A stretch of 64,000 bases of DNA from an uncultured Pelagibacteraceae bacterium (GTDB taxonomy: Bacteria > Pseudomonadota > Alphaproteobacteria > Pelagibacterales > Pelagibacteraceae), in assembly GCA_902567765.1 (NCBI GenBank), contig CACFNI010000003.1, positions 1-64,000 of the forward strand, written 5' to 3'. Within the stretch, counting starts at the first letter, position 1; each line of letters starts with the position of its first letter. The notes beneath the pieces were generated by a model. It searched no databases and was not told where the DNA came from. It was given only the letters and a program-made list of their open reading frames with translations. The translations under genes and the position numbers were made by a program. Shown here in pieces: positions 1-34,212 of the stretch.

Positions 1-1050
1 TTTCTTTTTACCTTTTTTCTTTTTAGCTTTTTCTTTTTTCTTTTTCTTGTTTACTTTTTTCTTTTTCTTCTTTTTATTTTCTTTAGCTTTTTCTTGCTTA
101 GGTTCTTTTGGCTCAACTTTTGGCTCAGCTACCTCAGGTGTCTCTGGTTCTGCAACATCTTGCTCTATAGTAGTTTCTTCAGTGATACTTTGATCAGGTG
201 TTTCTAAATCTGAAACATCTTCTCCTCTTTCTTTTAATAATACAATTCTTTTTTCTTTATCAACTTTAATATTTTGTTTGATTAAAGTTTTAATCTCTTC
301 TTTATCTAAACCAGCTTCTTTAAGTTCTTTTCTTATTTTTTTTCTGATTGCTTTCTTTTCTTCTTTTGAAGCACCTTCCATTTTTGCTGTTCTAAGTGCC
401 TTCATTCTTTTTTTGAATTTTTTTAATTGACCTTGTGAAATTTGTTTTGCTTTTCCTGGTTTCTTTCCAGACGTCATACTTGCAAATGTATAAGGGTTAT
501 TAAGCATGGTGTTTCCAAACTTATTACCAACAAGTACGGCTCCAGGTCTTAATCCTAATGTATTATTTTTTCCTGGACCGATTAACAACGTATCTGTTCT
601 TTTATTTTTTCTAGAAACTATTGTTTGAAATTCTGTTCCTCTAGATCCTAGAGTTCCTTCAGGGACTTTTACAGTTAAACTATCTGGATCTTTTTTGCTT
701 ATTAATCCAGAAATTACTTTTAAACTTCCCTCTTTAACTGTTGCAACGATTTTTCCATCATTAGTTTTAGGATCATATATAAAAGTGTCCATTAAAACTT
801 CTGAGTCTGCACCAATTGTAAATGTTGATTGATCTAATAATAAAAGTTGTGTTCCTGATCCAGCGCCTGCATAAATAGTCTCATTTAAATAAATTTTATC
901 ACCCGCTTTTAGAGTTCTTGTTTCTGTTTTAACTGTTCCTGAAATAGCACCAACTATACCAACTAGTTGTTTTTCAATACTTAACTCTTGCGATTGCGAC
1001 GTATTCACTAAGAGAAAAAAGCTTGCTACAAATGCTAAAATTTTCTTCAT
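1..1050 (-). CDS. FecR-domain exported protein with lysine-rich tail (3' end outside window)
   Basis: This open frame is absent from the ORF track because it has no stop inside the window; I translated it from the ATG at 1048-1050 (complement). It has a signal peptide (MKKILAFVASFFLLVN), then a FecR-like domain with the typical run LLDQSTFTIGADS, FIYDP, VKEGSLKVISG and VPEGTLGSRGTEF. It closely matches the 191-residue protein at 22745-23320. Unlike that copy, it continues beyond the FecR domain for at least 150 residues of charged sequence (KKEEKKAIRKKIRKELKEAG, then proline/glutamate-rich) into a tail that is almost pure lysine. FecR domains of this type are usually exported and found with outer-membrane or sensory proteins; the exact role is unknown. 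It follows the barrel gene at 1170-2897 in the same direction. Confidence 0.82.
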   Translation of the reverse strand, partial: MKKILAFVASFFLLVNTSQSQELSIEKQLVGIVGAISGTVKTETRTLKAGDKIYLNETIYAGAGSGTQLLLLDQSTFTIGADSEVLMDTFIYDPKTNDGKIVATVKEGSLKVISGLISKKDPDSLTVKVPEGTLGSRGTEFQTIVSRKNKRTDTLLIGPGKNNTLGLRPGAVLVGNKFGNTMLNNPYTFASMTSGKKPGKAKQISQGQLKKFKKRMKALRTAKMEGASKEEKKAIRKKIRKELKEAGLDKEEIKTLIKQNIKVDKEKRIVLLKERGEDVSDLETPDQSITEETTIEQDVAEPETPEVAEPKVEPKEPKQEKAKENKKKKKKKVNKKKKKEKAKKKKGKKK

Positions 1051-1105: not shown

Positions 1106-1118
1106 GACCAAAATGGGT
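1106..1118. promoter_or_regulatory. Candidate operator, ACCYA-N3-TRGGT family (weak copy)
   Basis: GACCAAAATGGGT lies 55 bp upstream of the FecR-protein ATG at 1050. It fits the 13-bp inverted repeat seen near the regulator gene at 15.2 kb, with one mismatch in the left arm. On the minus strand a TATACT hexamer follows about 27 bp downstream. The call is inference from similarity and position. Confidence 0.3.
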
Positions 1119-2922: not shown

Positions 2923-3345
2923 TTAAAAAGCTTCTCCCCAAGTTCCATTTTGGTCTAATGTTAATTGACTTTCTCCATCTGTTGCTTTAATGAGATAGCC
3001 CCCTGAACCACTCTCTATACACATATCCCAGCCAGTTTCTGGCGTAATTATTTGTCCACCAGAAAATAATTCACTATTAATCTCTTTAGAAGTAGCACCC
3101 TCTCCATTTTTTTCGTCTATAGTGCAAGCTGCACCTCCATCAAGAGTAAAAAAATATTCTCCGAAGCTTGATAGATAATCTGATTGTCCTAAAGATATCT
3201 GTTGCATCATATTTTTTGCGCTAGTTTGTTTAGTTCCATCCACATAACCATTGTAAGCAATAAGACCAACAGACGAAAGAACTCCGATAATTGCAATAAC
3301 TACTAAAAGCTCGATCAAACTAAAACCCGAGCTTTTAGTAATCAT
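2923..3345 (-). CDS. Type IV pilin-like protein
   Basis: A 140-residue prepilin. A short basic leader ends in the class III cleavage motif: SSG followed by FSLIELLVVIAIIGVLS, with Glu at position +5 of the mature protein, then an amphipathic helix and a globular part with two cysteines. PilD (20579-21346) would cleave after the glycine and methylate the new N-terminus. It lies 30 bp downstream of the second pilin gene on the same strand and probably shares its transcript. The mature size suits a major or accessory pilin. Which of the two forms the fibre cannot be told from sequence; the neighbour looks more like a classic major pilin. Confidence 0.9.
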   Translation of the reverse strand: MITKSSGFSLIELLVVIAIIGVLSSVGLIAYNGYVDGTKQTSAKNMMQQISLGQSDYLSSFGEYFFTLDGGAACTIDEKNGEGATSKEINSELFSGGQIITPETGWDMCIESGSGGYLIKATDGESQLTLDQNGTWGEAF

Positions 3346-3375
3346 AAATTTTAAATTGCTCTTAAGATCCGATAA

Positions 3376-3825
3376 CTACTCTATAGAAACGTTGTTCGTC
3401 ATCATTTTATCTGAAGCACAATCTTCTTCAAAACAAGTTGTAACTTTTATCGAACTACCTGTTTGTACGATAGCTACTTGACCTTGTTCTGGAGTACCAG
3501 AAGTTATTATTGCATCTTTAGAAGAGTCGAATGAGTTTTTAAAATCTGACAATGCACTTGCAGCTGCATCAGCTGTGTTTGTATCAGCTTTCCTTGTACT
3601 ACAATCAAGATCGCCACCCATTGCATCTGCGTCAGGATCAATTGAACATTTTGCAGTTTCTGCTGCAATATATTTTACTGCTGATGCGTGATTTGATTTT
3701 GTTGCACTTTTATTTGCACCTTCAATGTAACCTTGGTAAGCAACTGTACCAACAGCGGCAAGAATACCAATAATTGCTACTACAACTAATAATTCTATAA
3801 GAGTAAATCCTTTATTATTTTTCAT
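3376..3825 (-). CDS. pilA: Type IV major pilin candidate
   Basis: A 149-residue prepilin with leader MKNNKG, cleavage before FTLIELLVVVAIIGILAAVGTVAYQGY, and Glu+5. The globular part carries two cysteine pairs (C..C near the middle, CFEEDC close to the C-terminus), consistent with alpha/beta-loop and D-region disulphides. It is first in a two-gene pilin transcript and reads away from the STAS gene across a 172-bp divergent intergenic region holding an inverted-repeat site. The gene symbol is assigned by family; the fibre subunit could equally be the neighbour at 2923-3345. Confidence 0.9.
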   Translation of the reverse strand: MKNNKGFTLIELLVVVAIIGILAAVGTVAYQGYIEGANKSATKSNHASAVKYIAAETAKCSIDPDADAMGGDLDCSTRKADTNTADAAASALSDFKNSFDSSKDAIITSGTPEQGQVAIVQTGSSIKVTTCFEEDCASDKMMTNNVSIE

Positions 3826-3935: not shown

Positions 3936-3948
3936 GCCCATATTGGGT
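3936..3948. promoter_or_regulatory. Candidate operator between pilin and STAS genes
   Basis: GCCCATATTGGGT is a near-perfect inverted repeat (CCCA-TAT-TGGG) in the divergent promoter region, 49 bp before the STAS gene ATG and 110 bp before the pilin ATG. It matches the ACCYA-N3-TRGGT pattern seen at 13.2, 15.2 and 34.2 kb in all but the first base of the left arm. Binding is inferred. Confidence 0.45.
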
Positions 3949-3997: not shown

Positions 3998-4297
3998 ATG
4001 TCATACAAGGTTACAGAAGAAGGTAATATAAGCACGGTTTTTCTTAATGGAGAAATCGATATGGATGTTACTGAAAAAGCTAAAGAAGTAATATTACCTA
4101 TAGTAGAGTCAGGAAAAGAAGTTCATTTGAATTTAAAAGATGTGTCGTATATGGACTCATCAGGAATATCAGTCTTAATTGAGAGTCATCAAAAAGCCCT
4201 AGAAAAAAATACTAAAGTGGTTGTTAAAGAAGTAAGTAAGTCTGTTTTAAAAGTTATTATGATGGCTAAACTTGAACAGATTTTAAACCTTGAATAA
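3998..4297 (+). CDS. STAS-domain anti-sigma factor antagonist
   Basis: A 99-residue single STAS domain of the SpoIIAA/RsbV type. The strand-helix pattern and the phosphorylation-site motif MDSSGISVLIE, with the conserved serine after Asp, are clear. In partner switching, the unphosphorylated antagonist binds the kinase/anti-sigma and frees its other partner; the kinase inactivates it by phosphorylating this serine. Its stop codon overlaps the start of the HATPase gene by one base, so the two are translationally coupled. The matching PP2C phosphatase is at 19135-20415. No sigma factor is visible in the window, so the final target is unknown; the pilus genes around it make surface behaviour a plausible output. 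Confidence 0.92.
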   Translation: MSYKVTEEGNISTVFLNGEIDMDVTEKAKEVILPIVESGKEVHLNLKDVSYMDSSGISVLIESHQKALEKNTKVVVKEVSKSVLKVIMMAKLEQILNLE

Positions 4298-4710
4298 TGA
4301 ATTTATCAGAATCAAAAGATTTTGCTGTAAGTACTGCAAGCTTAAAAGATGTAAGGGTCTTTTGTAGAGAAATTTTTGAAAAAATTAATTTACCTCAAGA
4401 ACAAAAAGATGAATTAGTTTTGGCTATAGCCGAAGCAGCACAAAATATAGTTAAACATGGCTATAAAGGAGTTGAAGAAACTAATGATAGAATGGAAATT
4501 AAAATTTCCTTAAAAGATAAAGATCTTGAAATAGGTTTTTTTGATAAAGGTAAAGCTGTTGTTCCTGAAAATGTAAAACATAGAAAACTCGATGATATAA
4601 AACCTGGTGGCTTAGGAACTTTTTTTATAAAACAAATAATGGATAACGCTGTATTCAAAAAAGATCAAGACGGATGGGTAAACCATCTTATATTAACCAA
4701 AAAGATTTAA
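4297..4710 (+). CDS. Anti-sigma regulatory serine kinase (RsbW/SpoIIAB type HATPase)
   Basis: A 137-residue GHKL ATPase fold. The N-box reads ELVLAIAEAAQNIVKHGY and the glycine-rich ATP lid reads KPGGLGTFFIKQIMD. This is the size and layout of RsbW-type kinases, which phosphorylate a STAS antagonist and alternately sequester a sigma factor or other partner. It shares its first base with the STAS stop codon. Its 3' end overlaps the convergent pilC gene by 4 bp, so the two-gene plus-strand unit is wedged between the pilins and pilC. Confidence 0.92.
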   Translation: MNLSESKDFAVSTASLKDVRVFCREIFEKINLPQEQKDELVLAIAEAAQNIVKHGYKGVEETNDRMEIKISLKDKDLEIGFFDKGKAVVPENVKHRKLDDIKPGGLGTFFIKQIMDNAVFKKDQDGWVNHLILTKKI

Positions 4711-5958: not shown

Positions 5959-7713
5959 TTATGAGGATAAAACTCGCTCATACTCTCTAAAATTAAGATC
6001 GCCATTTGCAATCATTCTTCTTCCCATATCTTGCATGGTTTGAAAACCCTCTTTTATAGCAATTTCTTTTAATTCAGGAGTGGTAGCTTGTCTAAGTATA
6101 GCTTCTTTAATTGGTTTGGTAACTACTAAAATTTCATAAATACCTTGACGTCCTTTATAACCAGAGTCTTTACACTTTGGACAGCCTTTTCCCTTAGATG
6201 CTTTTACTCTTGATGCTTTTTCTGGAGTAAAACCTAAGTCAGTTAAAACTTTTGGATTAACGTCTTCGTCTGGTACTCTGCAATCTTTACAGTTTCTTCG
6301 TGCAAGTCTTTGCGCAAGGACCATTTGGGTTGCAGCACTTATTAAATAATCTGGTGTTCCCATGTTTTGTAACCTGGTAATTGTACTTGGTGCATCATTA
6401 GTGTGCAGTGTGCTAAATACTAAGTGTCCAGTAAGTGCAGCTTTTAGCCCAATATCAACTGTTTCCTTATCCCTCATCTCACCCACTAATATTATTTCTG
6501 GGTCTTGACGAAGAAATGATCTCAGCGCGGCAGAAAAAGTTAGTCCTATATCATCTTTAATTTGGACTTGTCCTACTCCATCTAGTTCATACTCGACAGG
6601 ATCTTCTGCTGTTAAAATATTTAAATGTGGTTTGCTTACTTCTTTAAGAATACTATACAAAGTTGTTGACTTTCCTGAACCTGTTGGTCCTGTAACAAGT
6701 ATTAACCCTTGTGTACTATGAATTGCTTTTCTTAAGTTTTTTAAATCAGCATCTTCAAAATTTAGTTGTTCTAAAGTTATGTCTCCTGCGTCTTTATTTA
6801 AAACCCGCATTACAATTCTTTCATTGCTAGCAGTTGGCAAAATAGATAATCGTAAATCAACAACTTTACCATCTATTTTAAAATTAATTGCACCATCTTG
6901 TGGTAATCTTCTTTCAGCGATATCTAACTTACCCATAATTTTAAAACGAGTAACTACTGCGCCATAATTATCATGAAGGAACTTTCTGTACTGTTCTTGC
7001 TCTTGCAACATACCATCTAAACGATAACGAACTCTTGAAGAAAATCTATATGGTTCGATATGAATATCACTCACTCCTGACTTGATTGCATCAGCAACAA
7101 CGGCTGTACTAAATTTTATAACTTCTGATTCATTTTCTAGCGCTTCTATATCTTCTTCAGGTGGTTTTTCTAAAACTTCTCCTGCTTCCCCTAAATCAGA
7201 GTCAAAAGTTTTTGTTTTTTCTTTACTAACATTTTCTTTTCTAATTGACTGTGCAGTCACATCGCCCGACTCACTTAATAGTTTATCTATGAAATTAGAA
7301 ATTTGTGTAACCTTTGCAGCATGTAATTCTATATTTTTTTTTGTAATTGCTTTAAGATTTCTCATTAAACCAAGTTTTGAACTATCTGAAATTGCTATAT
7401 GTAAATTTTTTCCCTCTACTTTAAACGGAGCAACAAAATTCATTTTAATATAATTAGATGGTAGAACTGCTTTAATTTCATCAGTAATGTCACTTTTTGT
7501 AAGATCAACAACTTCTAAATTTTGTTCCTTAACTAAAACGTCTAAAATTTTATTTTCATCTGTTAGTTTTAATTCAAATACAGCATCAATCTGTGATGAA
7601 TTTTTTTCAGTACTTACCTTCTTTATATTTGCTAAATCTTTTCCTGAAATAATGTCATGGTCAATTAAGACATTAATTAAATTTATTTCACTTTCTCTAC
7701 TTATTTTAAGCAT
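5959..7713 (-). CDS. pilB: Type IV pilus extension ATPase PilB
   Basis: A 584-residue GspE/PilB ATPase. The N-terminal GspE-II domain is followed by a catalytic half with Walker A GPTGSGKSTTLYSI, an Asp box, Walker B ILVGEMRDKETVD and a His box around STLHTNDAPS. The zinc-binding tetracysteine is present as CKDC...CPKC. This hexamer powers pilin addition. Its ATG overlaps the pilQ stop region by one base, and pilC follows after 10 bp. Confidence 0.96.
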   Translation of the reverse strand: MLKISRESEINLINVLIDHDIISGKDLANIKKVSTEKNSSQIDAVFELKLTDENKILDVLVKEQNLEVVDLTKSDITDEIKAVLPSNYIKMNFVAPFKVEGKNLHIAISDSSKLGLMRNLKAITKKNIELHAAKVTQISNFIDKLLSESGDVTAQSIRKENVSKEKTKTFDSDLGEAGEVLEKPPEEDIEALENESEVIKFSTAVVADAIKSGVSDIHIEPYRFSSRVRYRLDGMLQEQEQYRKFLHDNYGAVVTRFKIMGKLDIAERRLPQDGAINFKIDGKVVDLRLSILPTASNERIVMRVLNKDAGDITLEQLNFEDADLKNLRKAIHSTQGLILVTGPTGSGKSTTLYSILKEVSKPHLNILTAEDPVEYELDGVGQVQIKDDIGLTFSAALRSFLRQDPEIILVGEMRDKETVDIGLKAALTGHLVFSTLHTNDAPSTITRLQNMGTPDYLISAATQMVLAQRLARRNCKDCRVPDEDVNPKVLTDLGFTPEKASRVKASKGKGCPKCKDSGYKGRQGIYEILVVTKPIKEAILRQATTPELKEIAIKEGFQTMQDMGRRMIANGDLNFREYERVLSS

Positions 7714-10504: not shown

Positions 10505-12907
10505 CTATGTTTTGCTCTTACCTTTTGGATCAATTAATACAAAAACTCTAAATCCTTTCATTGTAATTCCACTCTTTGATCTTTTTGGAAGTTTCATCGA
10601 TGATAGTGATGCTTGCTTAATATATTTTTGACCACTTAAATTTTTTATAAATTTTAATATATCTTGATCACTTGCTGCTACACCTTGAATTGTAACCTTT
10701 GTTTTTCCATTATAATCAACTTTGTCAAATCTTACTCTTTTTGGAACACTTGCTGCAATTTGTGCCAATATTCTATAACTCAAATCTTTATTTGATTTAA
10801 GACTATTACTTAATTTTAAAGTTGTTTCAATTAAGCTTAATTCTTTGCCTATTGCTTTATTTTCCTTTTTTTTCAAAGCATGTGTTTTCTTTACCTTTTC
10901 ATAGTTAGCAAGTTTCTTATTATAAGAATGAATATTCCAAAAAGACAGTGCAAACATGATAAGATAAATTCCAACAACTCCACCAACAAATCCTTTAAAA
11001 GCAAAATTTGAGATTGCTTTCATTTTTTTCTGCTTGACCATGCCTTTTCTATTAGGAAGTAAATTTATGTTTTTAACCGCAGTTACAAACTTATAATAGC
11101 CAAAAACATCTAACTTCCTAAAAGCCAAACCAATTACAGTAGAAAGATATGATCGATTTTGTAAATTTACTGATTGATCAAGTTGTTGAGGTATTTTCAA
11201 TCCATCAATTGGATCAAAAGTTTTAAAACCAACATTAACTAAATTAGTTCTAAAGATTGATAAATAATCTTCAATATTTTCTAAATCAGAAACAACTTTT
11301 ATGTTTCTAATTCTTTTTTCATATTTTGTTTCAAAATCCTGTACAGCTTGTTTAACTTGTGTAACAAATCTTCTAACTAAGCCCTCTTTCTCTTCTTGAA
11401 CTTGTGATGATTTTAATATTTGTCTATCTTGTCCTCTTAAAAAAATATCAGTAATAATTGGATTATTATCATATAAGATCATTAGATAATTTTCATCTAA
11501 ACCAAATTCTAAAACAGCTGTTAAATTTGCATCCTCAGCTTTTTGAGAAATCTGATTAATTTGGTCTACTGCAGATTTTAATGCAAAACATTTTACGTCA
11601 ATTATAACTGGATTAAGTCCGCTTGATTTTATAATAGAAGTATAACTATTGATGTCAGATAGTTTTGACGCAACAAATAAAATATCCATAGTATTTTCTT
11701 TTTGATTTCTATTTATTACTTGATGAAATATTGAATAATCATCTAAATTATCAGTTAATTGAACAAGATTTTCCCAAAGAGAATTGGTTTCAATTGCCTT
11801 TTGCAATTCCTCATCCTTCATAAGAGGTGCTGTCACTACTCTTATGATTGCACTTGTAACAGGTATCGCAATTGCAGCATTTGGAGTTTTGATTTTCGAT
11901 TTTTGAAGGGCAATTGTCAATTCAGCTCCAAGTTTTTCAGAATTTTCCAAAACAACTGAATCTTCAGGCAGGTCTACTTTATGAATATAAAATTTTTCTA
12001 ATACCCATTGATTTGCTTTGTTAGAAGCAACTTGTGCTAATCTAATTTCTTTATTTGTTATTTCTACTCCAAGTATTTCTTCACCTTGTGCAGAAGATTT
12101 TCCCAATTTTGATTTAAAAAAATTGTCTAACTTGTTTTTAAAATTATTTGCCCCACCACTAGATGCTTTTGGCATTTTGAGACCACTTGCAAAAGATGGT
12201 TTTTTTAATTTTATATTTTTAAATTTATCTAATAAACTAGAAATAGATTTTTTACTTTCTGTAGATTCTTTATTATCGCTCACATTAATTTGTGGCTTTT
12301 GATTATTTTCGTTTTCAACTGAGCTTACAACTGGTTTTGGTGTTTCTGCTACAGGAGGTGTAATTGGTGCTGGGGGAGCTTCTGCCACCGGAGCAGAAGT
12401 TGCACTCGAGCTAGTCGCTGAAGTCTGGCCTGATAAATCTTGAGTTTCTTCTGTTTTTGAAGGTTCTTTTTCTTTATTTGCATGAACATCATCAAACCAT
12501 TTTTCTAAAATAGGAATTGCATCTTCTAAATTTTGTGTACCTGATGAAGAAATTTTTTGTTTTCCATCAATATAAAGCCTTCCAACCCAATTTTTTGATT
12601 TAAGCTCGCCCTTATATTTATCTTGTCTTACATATATATGTAATCTTCCATCTTTTTTATGAATTACCTCATGCTCTTTTTTCTCTTCCTGCTTTTTTTC
12701 TTCATTTTTGGGGGCTTCTGGAGTTTGAACTTCTTCATTTATTTCATTTGGAGTAGATTGGTCAACACTTATGTATGATTCACTTCCAGATTGTAATTCA
12801 TCATTACTTTTTGGATTTTGATTTACATCTTCCGATTGATTCTTCTGATTATCATCAGAACCTTGATCGTCAACCTTATCTATTTTATCTTTTTCGTCTT
12901 CACTCAT
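10505..12907 (-). CDS. PilM-PilN fusion protein with disordered N-terminal extension
   Basis: An 800-residue protein. Residues 1-80 are acidic and low-complexity. Residues of about 84-142 form a small folded segment (GRLHIYVRQDKYKG, then AIPILEKWFDDV) I do not recognise. Residues 150-270 are Pro/Ala/Ser-rich and then basic. Residues of about 278-600 are an actin-like PilM domain (ILGVEITNKEIRLAQVASN, then LEFGLDENYLMILYD). Residues of about 612-800 are PilN: the conserved INLLPNRK motif, a membrane helix at about 636-657, a coiled coil and a ferredoxin-like domain. Normally PilM is cytoplasmic and binds the INLLP peptide of PilN; here the two are covalently joined. First gene of the pilMN-O-P-Q-B-C run, behind a 532-bp repeat-rich upstream region. 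Confidence 0.9.
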   Translation of the reverse strand: MSEDEKDKIDKVDDQGSDDNQKNQSEDVNQNPKSNDELQSGSESYISVDQSTPNEINEEVQTPEAPKNEEKKQEEKKEHEVIHKKDGRLHIYVRQDKYKGELKSKNWVGRLYIDGKQKISSSGTQNLEDAIPILEKWFDDVHANKEKEPSKTEETQDLSGQTSATSSSATSAPVAEAPPAPITPPVAETPKPVVSSVENENNQKPQINVSDNKESTESKKSISSLLDKFKNIKLKKPSFASGLKMPKASSGGANNFKNKLDNFFKSKLGKSSAQGEEILGVEITNKEIRLAQVASNKANQWVLEKFYIHKVDLPEDSVVLENSEKLGAELTIALQKSKIKTPNAAIAIPVTSAIIRVVTAPLMKDEELQKAIETNSLWENLVQLTDNLDDYSIFHQVINRNQKENTMDILFVASKLSDINSYTSIIKSSGLNPVIIDVKCFALKSAVDQINQISQKAEDANLTAVLEFGLDENYLMILYDNNPIITDIFLRGQDRQILKSSQVQEEKEGLVRRFVTQVKQAVQDFETKYEKRIRNIKVVSDLENIEDYLSIFRTNLVNVGFKTFDPIDGLKIPQQLDQSVNLQNRSYLSTVIGLAFRKLDVFGYYKFVTAVKNINLLPNRKGMVKQKKMKAISNFAFKGFVGGVVGIYLIMFALSFWNIHSYNKKLANYEKVKKTHALKKKENKAIGKELSLIETTLKLSNSLKSNKDLSYRILAQIAASVPKRVRFDKVDYNGKTKVTIQGVAASDQDILKFIKNLSGQKYIKQASLSSMKLPKRSKSGITMKGFRVFVLIDPKGKSKT

Positions 12908-12992
12908 AAAAAATTAATTTATTCTCTAACACAATATTACGAATCTCTAACACAATTTAGATAAATGTCTAACACAAAATTAAAAGTTGTAT

Positions 12993-13005
12993 GCTCATTT
13001 TAGGT
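12993..13005. promoter_or_regulatory. Weak candidate operator upstream of pilMN
   Basis: GCTCATTTTAGGT fits the ACCYA-N3-TRGGT pattern except at the first and third bases of the left arm. It lies 85 bp before the pilMN start codon, between element clusters of the CTCTAACACAA array. Confidence 0.25.
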
Positions 13006-13104
13006 CATATGCATAAAATATTAAGTAAAATCAACAATTATTAATTATTAAAATATTTTGGATAAGTTTATGAAAATAATTTTAAAATTTAATTTCTCTA
13101 ACAC

Positions 13105-13153
13105 AAAAAATAAAAACTCTAACACAATGATAAAATTTACGTTTGTGTTAGAG
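13105..13153 (-). terminator. Possible rho-independent terminator formed by two array elements
   Basis: The facing copies at 13117-13127 and 13143-13153 make a perfect 11-bp stem around a 15-nt loop. Read on the minus strand it is followed by TTTTTATTTTTT, the form of a terminator for the regulator-MFS transcript coming from 14.7 kb. The same bases also belong to the regularly spaced array, so termination may be secondary or coincidental. Confidence 0.4.
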
Positions 13154-13212
13154 TTTATATGAAAAAAAAAAATTTTTAAAAGTCAATAAAATCAACAATT
13201 TTTGCGATTTCA

Positions 13213-13225
13213 ACCTAAAGTAGGT
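13213..13225. promoter_or_regulatory. Perfect inverted-repeat operator candidate upstream of pilMN
   Basis: ACCTAAAGTAGGT has perfect 5-bp arms (ACCTA/TAGGT). It is almost identical to ACCTAAAATAGGT at 15253-15265 beside the winged-helix regulator gene. It sits just before the inverted CTCTAACACAA pair, 305 bp from the pilMN start codon. Confidence 0.5.
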
Positions 13226-13439
13226 ATTTTGTGTTAGAGTACGAAGTTTTTGTGTTAGAGAATAAAAATATTTTTAAAAAAATAAAATTCTACCTTCCAA
13301 TCATATAAAAAATTAATAAATTTTCGAAAAAAAGATAAAATTTAGGGTTGTATTTTGGAAAAAAGTTTAATTTTTTAAATTTTTATAAAATTTTCAACTA
13401 AATATAGAAAACTTATTAAAAATTTTTAATTTTTTTTAA

Positions 13440-14669
13440 TTATACGTTCTTTACTGAAAGCATTAATAAAAAACCAATAATAAAAAAAAGTGAAACAGAT
13501 AAGAAACCAATTCTTTGTGAATACAAGTAAGTTAAAGTTCCTACCATTAAAGGTCCCGCAAAAGCAGTAACTCTTCCAGAGAAACTAAACAAACCAAAAC
13601 CTTTTCCTAAATCTGTTTTAGATAATAGTTTTGTCATCATTACACGGCTTGCGCTTTGAATAGAGCCTATAAAAAAAGAAATTACCATTACATTGTAAAA
13701 AAATTCACTTTTTGTTTGTGCAATCATTGATCCATAAACAACTGTGCATGTTAATACAACAATACAAAATAAAATAATTGTTTTAGAAGAAAATTTATCA
13801 TTTAAGTATCCCCCGATTAAAACTCCAGCGAATGCAACAATGTTTCCTGCGATTGCAAGTTTTAATAAATCACTTGAATTAAAATTAAAAACTCCAGAAG
13901 CATAAACACCTCCACCTGCAATCAATACAATTAATGCATCAGAATAAATCATTCTTGCTAAAAGAAACTTTCCAACTGATGTAAATTTATTTTTCCAAAT
14001 TATTTCAATAATTTTCTTTGCTACTGGTGTTGTGTCATTATTTTCTTCATAAGATATTTTTTTTTTAAAATAACTCATCATTGGTAAAGAAAAAATAAAA
14101 AACCAAAACGCAACAATCAATGGAATGAATCTTATGTGTTCAAAATTATTTTTATCTAAGCCGAAAGGAATTGTTTTAGGTAAAATAAAAAAATATAAAA
14201 CTAATAAAAGTATTGGTATCGATCCAATGTAACCTAATGCAAATGCAAATCCAGATGTTTTTCCAATATTGTTTTCATCTGAACATTTTTTTAATAACGA
14301 ATTGTAAAATATTGTTCCAACTTCATAACAGTAGTTTGAAATAAAAAAAATAATTAAAGTAAATAAAATATAATTTGGGTTTGGTTTTGAAAACCAAAAC
14401 AAACAAGTTGTTAGAATACAAAGTAAAGTAAATATTTGTAAGAAATTTATTTTTCCTTTAGGTTTTTTGTCAGCTATCGCCCCAATGAACGGTCCTGTTA
14501 ACGCAATCATAATTCCACAAAGTCCTGCAGTCCATTGCCAGTACGCTGCACCCAGTTGTGCGTTACCAACAATTTGATTTGCAAAGTAAGTTGAAGTTAC
14601 AAATGTTATAATGATCATTGTATACGCAGAATTTGCTAAATCATACAGTCCATAAAAAAATTTACTCAT
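13440..14669 (-). CDS. MFS transporter, UMF1-like
   Basis: About 409 residues with roughly 12 membrane helices. The N-terminus FFYGLYDLANSAYTMIIITF and the loop GPFIGAIADKKPKGK are typical of UMF1/Atg22-like major facilitator proteins. The track start at 14681 is a TTG inside the upstream gene; the ATG at 14667-14669, one base past the regulator stop, is more likely and is used here. It appears co-transcribed with the regulator at 14671-15216. The substrate is unknown. Confidence 0.88.
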   Translation of the reverse strand: MSKFFYGLYDLANSAYTMIIITFVTSTYFANQIVGNAQLGAAYWQWTAGLCGIMIALTGPFIGAIADKKPKGKINFLQIFTLLCILTTCLFWFSKPNPNYILFTLIIFFISNYCYEVGTIFYNSLLKKCSDENNIGKTSGFAFALGYIGSIPILLLVLYFFILPKTIPFGLDKNNFEHIRFIPLIVAFWFFIFSLPMMSYFKKKISYEENNDTTPVAKKIIEIIWKNKFTSVGKFLLARMIYSDALIVLIAGGGVYASGVFNFNSSDLLKLAIAGNIVAFAGVLIGGYLNDKFSSKTIILFCIVVLTCTVVYGSMIAQTKSEFFYNVMVISFFIGSIQSASRVMMTKLLSKTDLGKGFGLFSFSGRVTAFAGPLMVGTLTYLYSQRIGFLSVSLFFIIGFLLMLSVKNV

Positions 14670-14670
14670 T

Positions 14671-15216
14671 TTATTTATCAAACTCCAATAATGTTTTTAA
14701 TGTACCGCTCTTTTCCCACTTTTTTATCAATGAACTTAAATCTAATGTGGTTTGACTTACAAAGTCTTTATAAATAGTTTTATAAGCTGGTCCAAGTTTA
14801 ATCCCTCCATAAGTATTAAAAGTCAAAATTTCTTTTTTACTTAAAGAAATTACTTTTCTTCTTACTGTTTCTCTTGGAAGCTGTAATACTTCTGAAATAC
14901 TTGCAAAAGTTAATTTGTTAGTACTTATATTTTTTTTTTGCGTTATTCTTGTCATTTGTTCTTGTAGCTCAGCAAATGTTCTATTTCCTGATTTATTTAT
15001 TTCATAAAGGGAATGACTAACAACCACTTGGATTATTACGAAAGATTCATAGTCTACGTTTAATTTTTCACGTACTCTTGTATATAAAGAGAGAACGAAC
15101 ATCACCCAGTGATAGAAGCCCTTGGAAAATGGATGTTCCTGTTGCCTACTAGCTTTCTTTGCATCATCTAAAGAAATGACTTTGCTTTCACCTAATTTAG
15201 TTTTTTCATTACTCAT
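14671..15216 (-). CDS. Winged-helix transcriptional regulator, probably autoregulated
   Basis: The track start is at 15273, but the two inverted repeats at 15232-15265 would then be coding. The ATG at 15214-15216 (MSNEKTKLGES) with an upstream AGGGAG is preferred, giving 181 residues. An N-terminal helical part (GFYHWVMFVLSLYTRVREKL) precedes a helix-turn-helix: LTFASISEVLQLPRETVRRKVISL, then a beta-wing KKEILTFNTYGGIKL. The Crp-type recognition pattern (LPRETVRRK) is clear, but no cyclic-nucleotide domain is visible. I do not recognise the subfamily. Similar inverted repeats at its own promoter and at pilus, STAS and FecR genes suggest it as their binder; that is inference. Confidence 0.8.
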   Translation of the reverse strand: MSNEKTKLGESKVISLDDAKKASRQQEHPFSKGFYHWVMFVLSLYTRVREKLNVDYESFVIIQVVVSHSLYEINKSGNRTFAELQEQMTRITQKKNISTNKLTFASISEVLQLPRETVRRKVISLSKKEILTFNTYGGIKLGPAYKTIYKDFVSQTTLDLSSLIKKWEKSGTLKTLLEFDK

Positions 15217-15231
15217 TATAGTTTTTATTCT

Positions 15232-15265
15232 CCCTATAGTAGGTAGAGTACAACCTAAAATAGGT
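15232..15265. promoter_or_regulatory. Tandem operators between regulator and divergent surface-protein gene
   Basis: Two 13-bp inverted repeats, CCCTATAGTAGGT (15232-15244) and ACCTAAAATAGGT (15253-15265, perfect arms), are spaced 21 bp centre to centre. They lie 15 and 36 bp upstream of the regulator ATG at 15216, and the second is 53 bp before the divergent gene at 15319. This is the classic layout for an autoregulator that also controls its divergent neighbour. Confidence 0.6.
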
Positions 15266-15318
15266 ACAATCAATCTTTTTCCCCATTATGAGTTTAATAA
15301 GCTATCATTAATAAAATT

Positions 15319-17643
15319 ATGAAGAAGTTATTATTTTTTGTTTTATTTTTTTTATCTATGAGCAATTTTGCTTGGGGAGGAGCTTGCGATGCCACATTAA
15401 GCTCTGACTCTACTAGCATGCTCAATTGTTCAAATGACGATGAGTTAACTGTTAACGAAGATGTTACTTTGTCAAGAACTGGTAATGTAGCAATCCATGG
15501 AGAGTCAAATGAAAATTTGAAAATAACAAATCACGGAACTATACAAAATAGTAAACATCATACAATTTTTCTTACATCGGGAGTTAGTCCTACTATTGAT
15601 AATAAAAGTACTGGTACAATTGAATCAGAAGGAGGATGTTGTACTATAAATTATAAAAATGTCAGTGGTACATTCACTGTTACTAATGCTGGAAGTATAA
15701 TTTCTAAAACCCACGGTACAATTGTTAATTGGGGAAGTAGTAGCGCAGAAACAAATATTATAAATTCAGGAACAATCAGAATGCGTGGAGTAAGTGTCAG
15801 TCAAAGTAATGTAAAAGCACTTTGTGCAATTTGTGCAGGAGGTTCATCTGGTACTGTAACCATTACAAACTCTGGAACAATTGAAACTATCGGAGATGAT
15901 AGACCAGCAATTTATACCAACGATGCAACTACAGCTACTATAACTAATTCAGGAACTATTTCTGGCCACGGAACTTCAAAAGATATTTTAATTGAAGACG
16001 ATGCATCAGGTACTGCTACAACTACAATCAACATCAATCGTGGAGCAACATGGAACAAAGGAATTGATTTAGGTAATACTAATTCGAAAATTGTATTAGG
16101 ATCAGATAATAATAGAGATGTAACAGTAACAATTTATAATCATGATAATTTAACAATAGAAAATAAGACAGGAACAAACGGTTTCACTTTAACAACAGAG
16201 GATTTAGATAGTGGTGGTTCTAGTAATGATGGAACCCTAACAATTTTGGGAGAAAATCTTGAAGTTGAAAAAAATAATCAAAAATATCGAGCAGAAAATA
16301 CTCTAACTAAGATGAGAGGTATATTTGGTGCAGCAAATTACTTAGGAGGACAGTGGCCAGATGAATGTACAACAGTTGATAGAAATGAAAATGATAACGA
16401 ACTTAAAAGAAAATGTAATAATAGATTTGTTAAATTATTTCATAGCTATCAAAAAAGAGATGGTGTGTATGATGGTGCATCTAGTGGAATACTTGGCATG
16501 TTAAGTCCAATAAAATGGAGAGGATATCCAATTGTCAGTAATTTTTTTGTTGGCTACTCTAATCAAGAAGGTGATTTCGATAATGGTGAGTTTTTAGGTG
16601 GAGATAATTTTATTTTAGGACTAAAAAACACTTATGAACACAAAGGAATAAGAGCTTCTTTTACTCCAATGATAGGAGTAAATGACTTAAATGTTAAAGA
16701 TTACGATACAGATAAGGTTGAAAAAAGAACCAATGACTTTCTTAGTGAGTTTGCTGCTATTAATGCGAAAATTAATAAAAAAATTGGAACAGGAGATGAA
16801 AATTATTTGAACATAAGTATTGAAAGTACTTATGGACTACAAAGATTTCCAGAATATTTATCGAAATTTACCGATGGGGATTTAAGCGTTGATGAAAGTA
16901 TTGAGCAATTATTAAGTGGAGGATTTCAAGTTTCATACACAGAGGGACTGCCAGGTAATTTCATTTTAAAACCTTATTTTGGAGCTACTTTAAATAGTAG
17001 TTTAAACGATGAGATAAAAATTACTGCAAGGAATGAAAATAGTAATGTAACAAGTTCTCAAGAAACCTGGTCAGGCTATCACGCGGGTGTTTCATTAACT
17101 AAAAAAGCTAAAGGTATAAACTTTGATTTAAATTTAATGTATGGCAACGAAGATGGCTTAATCAACCAAATTGCAGCTTTTTCAGTGACTAAATCACTTG
17201 GTATTTCAAAAGAAGAGCAAAGGTCAAGTAATAAAGATGAAAATTTAAAACTTGCGAACATTAAGATTGATGAAAATCTATTGGAATTCGGAAAGCTTAA
17301 AGAAATAAATGAACAACTAAAAAATCAAAATGCAAAATTGAAAGCTGAAAATGAGGCTCTTAAATTATTGTATACAAAAACTATTGAGGAAAACAAAACT
17401 AGTAAAAATCTGATTGTTGAACTTTTAAAGGAAAACGAAAAAATAAAACTAGAAAAAGAGATTTTTAAAAATAAACTTTTAGAAAACGAAAATAAAGAAT
17501 TAAAAAAGCAAATAGAAAATGTAGTTGATAATAGAGGGGTTAATAAATTTGCTTTATTATTATTCACTGTAATATTATTTTTACTTGCATATGGGATATC
17601 AGTTTTTATTGTTTCTATTTTTCAATATTCTTTTAAAAAATAA
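15319..17643 (+). CDS. Exported beta-solenoid/barrel protein with coiled-coil and C-terminal membrane helix
   Basis: 774 residues. A signal peptide ends near NFAWG. Residues of about 20-330 are a repetitive solenoid with recurring ITNSGTI units, as in autotransporter passengers. Residues of about 370-640 have alternating, Gly/aromatic beta strands resembling an autotransporter barrel (FFVGYSNQEGDFDNGEF, then GFQVSYTEGLPGNFILKPYF). Unlike an autotransporter it does not end there: residues of about 655-735 form a long Lys/Glu coiled coil (LKEINEQLKNQNAKLKAE), and about 743-768 is one membrane helix (FALLLFTVILFLLAYGISVF). That would tie an outer-membrane domain to the inner membrane. It diverges from the regulator, with shared operator sites. 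Confidence 0.75.
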   Translation: MKKLLFFVLFFLSMSNFAWGGACDATLSSDSTSMLNCSNDDELTVNEDVTLSRTGNVAIHGESNENLKITNHGTIQNSKHHTIFLTSGVSPTIDNKSTGTIESEGGCCTINYKNVSGTFTVTNAGSIISKTHGTIVNWGSSSAETNIINSGTIRMRGVSVSQSNVKALCAICAGGSSGTVTITNSGTIETIGDDRPAIYTNDATTATITNSGTISGHGTSKDILIEDDASGTATTTININRGATWNKGIDLGNTNSKIVLGSDNNRDVTVTIYNHDNLTIENKTGTNGFTLTTEDLDSGGSSNDGTLTILGENLEVEKNNQKYRAENTLTKMRGIFGAANYLGGQWPDECTTVDRNENDNELKRKCNNRFVKLFHSYQKRDGVYDGASSGILGMLSPIKWRGYPIVSNFFVGYSNQEGDFDNGEFLGGDNFILGLKNTYEHKGIRASFTPMIGVNDLNVKDYDTDKVEKRTNDFLSEFAAINAKINKKIGTGDENYLNISIESTYGLQRFPEYLSKFTDGDLSVDESIEQLLSGGFQVSYTEGLPGNFILKPYFGATLNSSLNDEIKITARNENSNVTSSQETWSGYHAGVSLTKKAKGINFDLNLMYGNEDGLINQIAAFSVTKSLGISKEEQRSSNKDENLKLANIKIDENLLEFGKLKEINEQLKNQNAKLKAENEALKLLYTKTIEENKTSKNLIVELLKENEKIKLEKEIFKNKLLENENKELKKQIENVVDNRGVNKFALLLFTVILFLLAYGISVFIVSIFQYSFKK

Positions 17644-21426: not shown

Positions 21427-22755
21427 ATGAAAAGAGCTATTCTTAATGTAATTTTTATTTTCTTTTTTTTGACAGGAAATTTATTTTCATCCCAAATTAC
21501 ATATGAAGAAATTTTAGATAATCCATCAGACCTTCAGTTAAATTTAAATTATGCAAAGCAGCAACAAAATTCGGGCAACATTAAATTGACAATAGCAACT
21601 TTAGAAAGATTAAGTATGCTTTATCCTGAGAATCTGGATATTAAATTATATTTATTATCCATTTTGATTGAAATGGACTCATCTGTAAAAGTTGATCTCA
21701 TGGTAAGAACTTTGATGAATGATCCTAATACCACAGATGAAACTAAAAAAGTAATCGCAGGATTATTATCAAATACAAAAAAAGAAAAAAAAGAAAAACA
21801 AAAAAGCAAATGGTTTGCTTATCTAGATTTAAAATATTCACATACTGAAGAAGATAATATTAGTGGAGTAACAAAATCAAAAAAAAATTTACAAGAAAAC
21901 AATTTATTACCATACCCACAAATTGATAATAGATTAGTTGTAGAATATGACAAAACTTATACGAAAGCAGCTGCCTTAACACTAGGAAAAAACATTAATG
22001 ATACTTCATCAATGTTTTTAAATTTTGGTTTAGATTCAAATACAATTAATAAAAAAATTAAAGGTGACAGCGATGTTGTATCTTCCTCAGTAAGTTATTT
22101 TAAAATATTGGGAAACCACTACCTGTCACCATATTTTTATTGGAATCGACCTAATTATAGAAAACAAGAGGATTCCAATTCAAAAGGTGTAGGAATAAAC
22201 AATACTTTAATTATCAATGAAAAAAGTAATATTAATTACAGTCTAGGTTTTGCGAACACCTCTTATGATAATAACCTAACCTTTAGCACAGCAAATGAGA
22301 GTAATAGCGATGTATATTCAAGTTTTCTTAGATACAATTATAATGTTACAAATAAAATTCAATTAGGTGCAAAAATTATTTTAAATAGAACTGAGACTTT
22401 AAAAGAATTTGATAGCTTTGATACAAATGGTTTTAGTATTTTATATTCGCAAATATTACCATTTGGAACTTTGAAATTTAAAAATACATATCTTCAAAAT
22501 AATTATGATGATAAAGAGACGTTTATAAGTACATCCATAACAAGAAATGATGAAAGTTTAGTTACATCAATATCATTAGAGGGACAAATAAACCAAATCC
22601 TTCCAGTTTTGAAAACGCTAAATAAAGACAATAGTATTTTTTATTCTTTTAATTTAAAGCAGTCTGATGTAAGTTCAAATATAGCTAATCATGATATTTT
22701 AAGAAATTTTATTACTTTTGGACTAACTAAAAGGATTAATTTAAATGTACAGTAA
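21427..22755 (+). CDS. TPR plus outer-membrane beta-barrel protein, short form
   Basis: 442 residues. A cleavable signal peptide (ends near LFSS) is followed at once by a TPR segment (EEILDNPSDLQLNLNYAKQQ, then IKLTIATLERLSMLYPENLD). A Lys-rich linker and a C-terminal region of alternating strands ending DILRNFITFGLTKRINLNV follow, typical of an outer-membrane barrel. The TPR segment is a close match to residues 170-240 of the 575-residue protein at 1170-2897, so the two are paralogues. Its 3' end overlaps the FecR gene by 11 bp. The Slam/DUF560-like layout suggests help with surface-protein assembly; unproven. Confidence 0.8.
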   Translation: MKRAILNVIFIFFFLTGNLFSSQITYEEILDNPSDLQLNLNYAKQQQNSGNIKLTIATLERLSMLYPENLDIKLYLLSILIEMDSSVKVDLMVRTLMNDPNTTDETKKVIAGLLSNTKKEKKEKQKSKWFAYLDLKYSHTEEDNISGVTKSKKNLQENNLLPYPQIDNRLVVEYDKTYTKAAALTLGKNINDTSSMFLNFGLDSNTINKKIKGDSDVVSSSVSYFKILGNHYLSPYFYWNRPNYRKQEDSNSKGVGINNTLIINEKSNINYSLGFANTSYDNNLTFSTANESNSDVYSSFLRYNYNVTNKIQLGAKIILNRTETLKEFDSFDTNGFSILYSQILPFGTLKFKNTYLQNNYDDKETFISTSITRNDESLVTSISLEGQINQILPVLKTLNKDNSIFYSFNLKQSDVSSNIANHDILRNFITFGLTKRINLNVQ

Positions 22756-23320
22756 AAAAATAATTATTATATTAATTCTAATATTGTTGCCAAACTTTGC
22801 AAATGCAAATACATCAAATTTTATTGGTGTTGTAGGCGCAGCCATTGGGGAGATTAAAAATCAAAATAATGAAAACTTGGTTGATGGATCAAAAATATTT
22901 TTTGGAGATACAATTATCTCAAAAGAAAAGTCAAATGCGCAAATACTATTTCTTGACCAGACAGTTTTAACACTTGGTGAGGATACAGAGTTAACTATAG
23001 ATGAATTTATATATGATCCTAAAAGTCACGAAGGATCTTTCATTTCCAATGTTAAGTCTGGCACTGTTAAATTTATAACTGGACAAATAAGTAAACAAAA
23101 TCCTGACAATTTAGAAGTAAAAGTTCCATCAGGAGTATTAGGTGCTCGTGGTACAGAATTTATTGTTCTATCGGAAAATGAAAATAAAAGTACAGTTGTA
23201 TTATTGGGGCCAGGACCAGAAAATACTTTGGGAATGATACCTGGAAATCTAATACTTTCCGATGGGATAAACTCTATAAATATTACTAATCCTGGATATG
23301 AAGCAATGGTAACAAATTAA
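22745..23320 (+). CDS. FecR-domain exported protein, short form
   Basis: 191 residues with a signal peptide ending near NANA and one FecR domain: FLDQTVLTLGEDTELTIDEF, VKSGTVKFITGQIS and VPSGVLGARGTEFIV. The order of motifs and much of the sequence match the protein at 1-1050, but this copy stops soon after the domain and has no lysine-rich extension. It overlaps the preceding barrel gene by 11 bp and abuts the next gene with no gap, so the three genes 21427-24343 form one unit. Confidence 0.88.
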   Translation: MYSKKIIIILILILLPNFANANTSNFIGVVGAAIGEIKNQNNENLVDGSKIFFGDTIISKEKSNAQILFLDQTVLTLGEDTELTIDEFIYDPKSHEGSFISNVKSGTVKFITGQISKQNPDNLEVKVPSGVLGARGTEFIVLSENENKSTVVLLGPGPENTLGMIPGNLILSDGINSINITNPGYEAMVTN

Positions 23321-32456: not shown

Positions 32457-33158
32457 TTAATTTTGCAAAATCCATTCTAGCTGAGTACTGCTCCATTTAT
32501 CCATAGTTATTTCTCCAAATCTAGTCCAGTCTATAGAATACATTGTAGAATCATCTTTGTCATTTGGTTCTCCACTAACACTGAGTAAACATCTAGAATT
32601 TGTTGCTGTTCTCTTACAAACGAATAAGCTTTCATCTACAACTGCGCTATCTCCTGTTCCGCTAAGCAAATCACCAGCACCACTAAACCACCTGGCATTT
32701 TTTGAAAAACATACCCCTGCATTAGTGGACAAATTTGTAGTAATGCTATCAAATGTTACAGTCTGAACTTCGATTACTGTATCTACAGAGCCGTCTACGT
32801 CCCAGTAATCATCATTGTCGATATTACATCTCGAAGCTGAAGATGTATTCCATTCACTATCACCATTATTTATCTTTGTAGTCAATGTGTCTGTTTTCAT
32901 ACCTTTGGTTGTAAAAACTACATTATCATCATTTACTTCAATTAACACCTGTACAAAAGCAAATTGACCTCTCTGAACTTGTGCATTAATAGCCTCGAAT
33001 AACTTTTTTGCTCTTAGAACATCAGTCCTTACATCTCTACTCTGTTTCCAATTTGAAAAACTCGGATATGCTGCAGCAGATATTACTCCTATAATTGCAA
33101 GAACAACAATTAGCTCGAGTAAATTAAAACCTTTAATGTTCTTTTCCGGCACCAGCAT
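32457..33158 (-). CDS. fimT: Minor prepilin, FimT/GspH-like
   Basis: Using the internal ATG at 33158 (MLVPEKNIKG) gives a normal short prepilin leader; the track start at 33179 adds seven residues. Cleavage would precede FNLLELIVVLAIIGVISAAA, with Glu+5. The segment SFSNWKQSRDVRTDVLRAKK resembles the GspH/FimT helix. It is first of the four minor prepilins and overlaps the 3' end of pilT by 26 bp, so translation is probably coupled to it. The gene symbol is family-level only. Confidence 0.83.
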   Translation of the reverse strand: MLVPEKNIKGFNLLELIVVLAIIGVISAAAYPSFSNWKQSRDVRTDVLRAKKLFEAINAQVQRGQFAFVQVLIEVNDDNVVFTTKGMKTDTLTTKINNGDSEWNTSSASRCNIDNDDYWDVDGSVDTVIEVQTVTFDSITTNLSTNAGVCFSKNARWFSGAGDLLSGTGDSAVVDESLFVCKRTATNSRCLLSVSGEPNDKDDSTMYSIDWTRFGEITMDKWSSTQLEWILQN

Positions 33159-34146
33159 CAATTTTCCCAGCTTTGACAAGTTCCTCTAAGGATTTCGTCA
33201 TTGTTATCATTCCTTCTTTTACAGCAGTTTGCATGATGCTTGGGATCTGATGAATTTTAGATTCTCGGATTAAGTTTTGAATAGGAGCAGTACACTTCAT
33301 CACTTCAAAAGCACCACAACGACCTTGCCCGTCTTTTGTTTTTAGTAATCTTTGAGTTACAACCATTTTTAAAGATGTTGAGATTTGTGCACGTATCTGA
33401 GCTTGTTGCTCTGGTGGAAATACGTCAATAATTCTATTAATTGTACTTGGGGCACCACTGGTATGCAATGTTCCAAAAACTAAGTGACCTGTTTCTGCAG
33501 CTGTAAGTGCAAGTGAAACTGTTTCTAAATCTCTCATCTCACCAACTAGAATTACATCTGGATCTTCTCGAAGCGCAGCTTTTAAAGCACTTGCAAAACT
33601 TTGAGTTTGTTTTCCAACTTCTCTATGAGAGACAATACTTTTAATATCTTTGTGGATAAATTCTACAGGATCCTCAACAGTTATTATATTTGATGTTCTA
33701 GTTTTATTTATTTCATTCACAATTGCAGCAAGTGTTGTTGATTTACCTGAACCCGTAGGTCCAGTTACTAAAACTAAACCTTTATGCATATCAATAATAT
33801 CATATAGCACTGGTGGTAAATCAAACTGGTCCATAGTTGGTATTACACTTTCTACCCTTCTAAGAACAGCAGCAGGACCATGAATTGTTTTATAAAAATT
33901 TGCACGAAATCTTAGACCCGCAAGAGTTACTGATGAATCTAATTCGTGTGTATCTTGAAATCTTTTCATCTCTACTTCATTGCAATTTGTAGAAATTAAA
34001 TCTTGAAGATCTTGCTTTTTAACAAGGACCTCTTGTACTTTATGAATTTCGCCGGTTTGTCTGTAGGCAAGAGGCCATCCGCTCCTGATGTGAAAGTCAG
34101 ATATCTTTTTATTGTTTTTTGCTAATTCTTCTAATTTTTCAAACAT
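33133..34146 (-). CDS. pilT: Type IV pilus retraction ATPase PilT
   Basis: 337 residues. An N-terminal PAS-like half leads to a RecA-like half with Walker A GPTGSGKSTTLAAI, Walker B VILVGEMRDLETVS and the His box FGTLHTSGAPS. Near the end APIQNLIRESKIHQIPSIMQ corresponds to the PilT AIRNLIRE helix needed for retraction. It lacks the C-terminal extension of PilU. It heads the transcript pilT-fimT-pilV-pilW-pilX-pilY1. Pairing PilT with minor pilins rather than with pilB is unusual. Confidence 0.94.
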   Translation of the reverse strand: MFEKLEELAKNNKKISDFHIRSGWPLAYRQTGEIHKVQEVLVKKQDLQDLISTNCNEVEMKRFQDTHELDSSVTLAGLRFRANFYKTIHGPAAVLRRVESVIPTMDQFDLPPVLYDIIDMHKGLVLVTGPTGSGKSTTLAAIVNEINKTRTSNIITVEDPVEFIHKDIKSIVSHREVGKQTQSFASALKAALREDPDVILVGEMRDLETVSLALTAAETGHLVFGTLHTSGAPSTINRIIDVFPPEQQAQIRAQISTSLKMVVTQRLLKTKDGQGRCGAFEVMKCTAPIQNLIRESKIHQIPSIMQTAVKEGMITMTKSLEELVKAGKIDAGAGKEH

Positions 34147-34199: not shown

Positions 34200-34212
34200 A
34201 CCCAAAATAGTT
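34200..34212. promoter_or_regulatory. Candidate operator upstream of pilT
   Basis: ACCCAAAATAGTT fits the ACCYA-N3-TRGGT inverted repeat with one mismatch in the right arm. It is 53 bp before the pilT ATG, the same distance seen at the STAS gene, the FecR gene and the gene at 15319. On the minus strand TATTAT lies about 34 bp downstream. Confidence 0.4.

Follow-up and report, generated by a model that had tools for sequence, protein, structure and literature searches.

Which protein controls the pili of SAR11 bacteria? These organisms outnumber all other marine heterotrophs and are believed to possess few regulators (PMC12636525). In energy-starved Ca. Pelagibacter ubique kept in the dark, pilA rises and pili appear, and the part of that report considered here names no regulator (PMC3090418); none for these dark-starvation pili was found in the literature searched. 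The question is raised by a 64,000-nucleotide stretch of DNA from an uncultured Pelagibacteraceae bacterium (the window), whose own assembly comprises 991 kb and is 75% complete. The window carries a pilus set (a PilM/PilN fusion, a secretin, extension and retraction ATPases, pilins and a prepilin peptidase), a partner-switching set (a STAS protein, an RsbW-like kinase and a SpoIIE phosphatase) and the gene for a 181-aa winged-helix protein. Since a 13-bp motif before these genes is precisely conserved across dozens of genomes, this protein is, as judged from sequence, a strong candidate switch for pili. No paper describing it was found in the literature searched. With a candidate protein, an operator and likely targets named, SAR11 pilus control can be tested in vitro with synthetic DNA.

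A predicted operator array across the regulator start codon

The sequence-only reading had listed copies of a 13-bp inverted repeat, ACCYA-N3-TRGGT, at seven positions, and a scan of the window recovers every one of them, with zero to two mismatches. The copies at 15253 and 13213 are perfect and, as claimed, differ from each other by one base; those at 15232, 3936 and 34200 have one mismatch each, and those at 12993 and 1106 have two. At the regulator's promoter, a pair 21 bp apart (15232 and 15253) had been described, which is correct but incomplete, as copies at 15211, 15190 and 15281 were missed. The sites at 15190, 15211, 15232 and 15253 form a four-site array in exact 21-bp steps across the regulator start codon (Table 1). 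The same arrangement is found in the regulator promoters of 19 other genomes, where the common offsets are -49, -28, -7, +14 and -77, and no further offset is common to at least four of the 19 between -140 and +119. These 19 regulators are about 55 to 85% identical, and arrays with 20- to 21-bp spacing are still present at about 43% regulator identity. Among named relatives, those closest at the regulator locus are SAR11 single-cell genomes of uncultured Pelagibacteraceae, with identities of up to 98%. In one related locus (L166, about 5970-6050), operator and start codon lie together in a 21-bp unit that is tandemly repeated, so that the regulator's N terminus reads as MSEKKTI repeats.

The array also has a defined place in the promoter. 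The -49 site lies between a predicted TTGATT -35 element and a predicted TGTAAT-like -10 element with 17-bp spacing, and the remaining copies cover the predicted transcription start and the translation start. The regulator gene would offer a clear example from nature of an array of self-controlling operators that extends across the start codon and puts the opening codons under constraint. Written as RCCYA-N3-TRGGY, the repeat is the predicted operator of the 181-aa protein.

Table 1. Genes and operator sites in the window. Offsets are relative to the regulator ATG; scores are from the array-only matrix unless noted.
Feature	Coordinates	Strand	Evidence
FecR-domain protein gene, runs off window	1..1050	-	Pfam FecR, E 1e-7
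Operator 55 bp before FecR-domain gene	1106..1118		14/17 regulator-bearing genomes
Two type IV pilin genes (2923-3345, 3376-3825)	2923..3825	-	Pfam N_methyl
Operator between pilin genes and STAS gene, 49 bp before STAS start	3936..3948		15/19 regulator-bearing genomes, score at least 11
STAS-domain gene and RsbW-like kinase gene, partner-switching pair	3998..4710	+	Pfam STAS and HATPase_c_2
pilM/pilN fusion gene, first of pilus assembly operon	10505..12907	-	Pfam PilM_2 and PilN
Eight copies of TTGTGTTAGA, pilMN promoter	12925..13259	12925-, 12946-, 12968-, 13097-, 13118-, 13143+, 13229+, 13250+	Scan; alignment
Operator before pilMN, about 85 bp from its start, deeply conserved	12993..13005		18/18 loci (earlier matrix); alignment
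Second operator before pilMN, perfect, near relatives only	13213..13225		Scan; locus comparison; alignment
Winged-helix regulator, 181 aa, proposed motif binder	14674..15216	-	ATG at 15216, stop 14671-14673; orthologs with same array
Operator copy at +14, inside codons 5-9	15190..15202		Offset kept in 17/19 relatives
Operator copy at -7, overlaps start codon	15211..15223		13/19 relatives
Operator copy at -28	15232..15244		16/19 relatives
Operator copy at -49, perfect consensus, regulator promoter	15253..15265		19/19 relatives; promoter geometry
Outlying operator copy at -77, CCCCATTATGAGT	15281..15293		11/19 relatives
774-aa exported repeat protein, divergent from regulator, possible target	15319..17643	+	Sequence; variable neighbour in relatives
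pilT-like retraction ATPase gene	33133..34146	-	Pfam T2SSE
Operator 53 bp before pilT	34200..34212		19/22 regulator-bearing genomes

Candidate target promoters

Counting the bare consensus does not discriminate real sites, either in the window or in the genome. With up to two mismatches, the window holds 59 copies versus 47 +/- 6.6 in shuffled sequence, which is barely an enrichment. Genome-wide, where claims are based on pattern searches and on stretches examined individually, there are 53 copies with at most one mismatch (about 50 of them among the places listed) versus 118 for the reversed pattern, no more than expected by chance. Perfect copies number two in the genome, both within the window. 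It is therefore position and conservation, not bare counts, that set the motif apart from chance.

A more discriminating tool is a matrix trained on the four main array positions of the 19 other regulator promoters, with no pilus site included. It replaced an earlier matrix whose training set contained target sites of relatives, which made it partly circular. Across the 64 kb, the ten best matches of the array-only matrix are the five array sites together with 13213, 3936, 34200, 1106 and 12993. Coding sequence makes up about 96% of the window, yet eight of the ten matches lie upstream of genes and the remaining two fall on the opening codons of the regulator. Of the high-scoring matches examined in the rest of the genome, all 12 lie inside genes, and the motif was found at just one further promoter, that of a two-domain paralog, discussed below. 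A comparison of coding with upstream DNA had been proposed as a check on the regulon and comes out in its favor, with these matches concentrated in the promoters of the candidate members.

The sites before these genes hold their register, are conserved and are nearly restricted to these promoters. Among regulator-bearing genomes, a score of at least 11 is reached before the STAS gene in 15/19, before pilT in 19/22 and before fecR in 14/17, compared with 4% of random 210-bp stretches; in genomes without a detected regulator, the corresponding figures are 0/9, 3/6 and 2/5. The usual distances in relatives are nearly constant (about -62 for STAS, about -66 for pilT and about -59 for fecR), and the STAS site also serves as the candidate site of the pilin genes. 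The spacings from site to start codon reported earlier for the window also prove accurate: 55 bp for FecR (start at 1050), 49 bp for STAS (3998), 53 bp for the putative adhesin (15319) and 53 bp for PilT (34146). Both sites previously placed before pilMN are present, but only that at 12993 is deeply conserved, with 13213 confined to near relatives. In each of the 18 loci where the pilMN start could be read, the conserved pilMN site scores highest, in a scan made with the earlier matrix, which contained some pilMN sites. One genome with a regulator of 51% identity (G028) has five perfect copies across its entire assembly, three of which are at fecR, STAS/pilin and pilMN. In most genomes, pilMN and the regulator gene are physically linked.

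Where relatives keep the regulator, the array and the pilMN, STAS, pilT and fecR sites are kept as well, which is what the sequence-only reading had asked of them. Its larger proposal, a single regulon joining pilus, partner-switching, FecR and surface genes, is supported by these conserved sites, but the case for control of the divergent adhesin is weak because the adhesin gene is not always beside the array. The product of 15319-17643 has no Pfam match and is, from its sequence, likely an autotransporter-type adhesin. In SAR11, such an adhesin always neighbors genes for pili or type II secretion (PMC12636525), a placement that this gene fits. The window encodes a second FecR-domain protein at 22745-23320, near the prepilin peptidase gene. 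In a related locus (L115, G015 contig 23), a TPR/barrel gene orthologous to window 1170-2897 and a gene for a 96-aa lipoprotein-like product are also preceded by operators.

A regulator family with one- and two-domain members

The 181-aa protein belongs to an undescribed MarR-like winged-helix family. It has no match to a Pfam or NCBIfam family, and sequence searches of the PDB likewise name none. Its predicted model (pLDDT 75) has a winged helix at about residues 104-141 and long flanking helices, and a Foldseek search of this model gives weak matches (best E 0.006, query TM-scores below 0.5), with MarR-type proteins among the best. Like MepR, OhrR, MexR and NadR of the MarR family, it is modelled as a small winged helix with flanking helices, has predicted palindromic operators and is predicted to control its own gene. 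Unlike them, it has no Pfam MarR or MarR_2 match above cut-off (its paralogs have sub-threshold MarR_2/MarR matches only), and it has a paralog with two winged-helix modules. Some likeness to Crp/Fnr proteins can be seen in the weak HTH_Crp_2 similarity of the paralogs' helix-turn-helix and in a predicted operator upstream of -35, but the cyclic-nucleotide-binding domain of that family has no Pfam match in the 181-aa protein or its paralogs. Dedicated control of pilus genes is known from PilS/PilR, which is of the sigma-54 two-component type. A similar dedication is predicted here, but for one small protein with predicted self-repression instead of a sigma-54 two-component system.

The 181-aa protein aligns with the C-terminal half of a two-domain family of 320 to 360 aa (hhalign probability 98%, E 5e-14), which is present in most of 61 genomes searched and in both represented families of the order. 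The aligned recognition-helix sequences of family members read LPRETVRRK and IPRATVVRK. In the window's own genome, the two-domain gene (G000 contig 1, about 164.9-166.1 kb; L023, L024) is preceded by three related operator-like sites, 16 bp apart; it is divergent from a gene for a 78-aa putative membrane protein. Its product may also bind some of the pilus-linked sites of this genome. Within the window's genus, paralog genes carry pairs of GTTCA-N3-TGGGT before their own start, usually 32 bp apart, while those of the other Pelagibacterales family carry a single ACCCA-N3-TGGGT or a near copy. Because paralog genes also carry related operators, the motif appears to be the operator of a regulator family, and it is mainly for this reason that we infer the 181-aa protein to be the binder. 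In the other family, a perfect ACCCA-N3-TGGGT is also seen before a small HTH_25 (RodZ-like) gene in five of six genomes (L235, L237, L233, L240, L242), and this gene is likely a second target of the two-domain regulator.

The two forms can also be compared at the targets they might share. At targets, the single-domain matrix score minus the two-domain matrix score has a median of +2.1 where the genome carries the single-domain gene and -4.2 where it does not (p 1.5e-5). On a PilT gene tree, presence or absence of the single-domain gene changed at least five times; after pairing on the tree, site class versus regulator presence is not significant (five supported pairs), with about two to three pairs agreeing and almost none opposing. 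The correlation rests on few independent events and is therefore suggestive only. Several of the absences may be assembly gaps. For instance, one such genome (G003) falls within the G067/G069 pair on the PilT tree, and its contig extends no further than 234 bp upstream of pilMN. Sites are kept in some genomes where no regulator was detected, and most of those assemblies are incomplete. The sites in regulator-less genomes look more paralog-like, so shared control, or control handed over to the paralog, is possible. A wider reading is that an order-wide, self-regulating winged-helix family controls SAR11 pili, with two forms, the ancestral one having two domains and the pilus-linked one a single domain, reading the same promoter positions, and the sequence class of the sites following the form that a lineage keeps. 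We put this forward tentatively, as a possibility slightly less probable than its opposite.

Models of control

Our preferred model, which we consider probable, is that the repeat is the operator of the 181-aa protein, which would repress its own gene through the array and set the expression of pilus, partner-switching and FecR/surface genes through single copies, likely by activation. The protein would bind four to five copies over its own promoter and start codon, mostly 21 bp (two helical turns) apart, and the occupied array would occlude the promoter; self-repression is predicted because the array covers both the promoter and the start codon. Single operators lie just upstream of the predicted fecR, pilT and STAS/kinase promoters, with one before pilMN, and through these the protein would set expression, with activation the likeliest mode. 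The fecR and pilT operators end 10 to 11 bp before the predicted -35, with the -10 at +32/+34, and a position just upstream of -35 is the usual one for an activator. Averaging of promoter elements gives a clear picture at the regulator, fecR and pilT; the promoter call at STAS is similar but weak, and that at pilMN is ambiguous, the operator seeming to overlap the -35 region. The geometry at the regulator, fecR and pilT therefore leads to a model of a self-limiting activator. Three elements of the model are inferred: which protein binds, whether it activates or represses, and what signal it answers to. The pili of dark-starved Ca. P. ubique are the likely biological output of the proposed regulon (PMC3090418).

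The closest competitor keeps the 181-aa protein as the binder but makes it a plain repressor at every site. The operator inside its own predicted promoter and the overlap with the -35 region at pilMN would suit such a protein, but at fecR and pilT the operators are upstream of -35, at the same offset, where activators usually bind, and we find a uniform repressor rather doubtful. We think it unlikely that the sites mainly belong to the two-domain paralog, with the pilus-linked single-domain protein competing with it or antagonizing it. The paralog does have three related sites of its own, spaced by 16 bp; several genomes that lack the single-domain gene have the paralog's GTTCA-N3-TGGGT in place of the array type at their pilus promoters (fecR and pilMN of G036 are of this class); and in the window's genome the sites at 3936 and 1106 fit the paralog matrix slightly better. 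However, the pilT site, 13213 and the array are far closer to the single-domain type, the single-domain gene is the one linked to pilMN in most genomes, and the shift in class loses significance after tree pairing.

Two further readings dispense with the winged-helix protein. The partner-switching genes adjoin the pilus genes, and the motif could be imagined as an element in the core promoter read by an alternative sigma factor that STAS/RsbW/SpoIIE partner switching sets free. This is very improbable: the repeat is a palindrome, its 21-bp arrays extend into coding sequence, and elements resembling an ordinary -35 and -10 lie downstream of it. A chance origin of the palindromes, in DNA that is AT-rich, would account for bare consensus counts near expectation, but not for positions fixed across dozens of genomes or for the ten best matches of an independently trained matrix. 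A chance origin of the sites kept in relatives is refuted by their conservation, and we assign this explanation a negligible probability.

A second repeat shares the pilMN promoter. Eight perfect copies of TTGTGTTAGA lie in the 533-bp gap before pilMN, five in one orientation and three in the other, many of them 21 to 22 bp apart, and there are none elsewhere in the 64-kb window. Rfam has no match in 12800-15400. The repeat is almost absent from the rest of the 1.8 Mb of DNA examined. It is a conserved array separate from the 13-bp operator, and most of its copies are kept in nearly every such pilMN locus, including those of genomes without the regulator.
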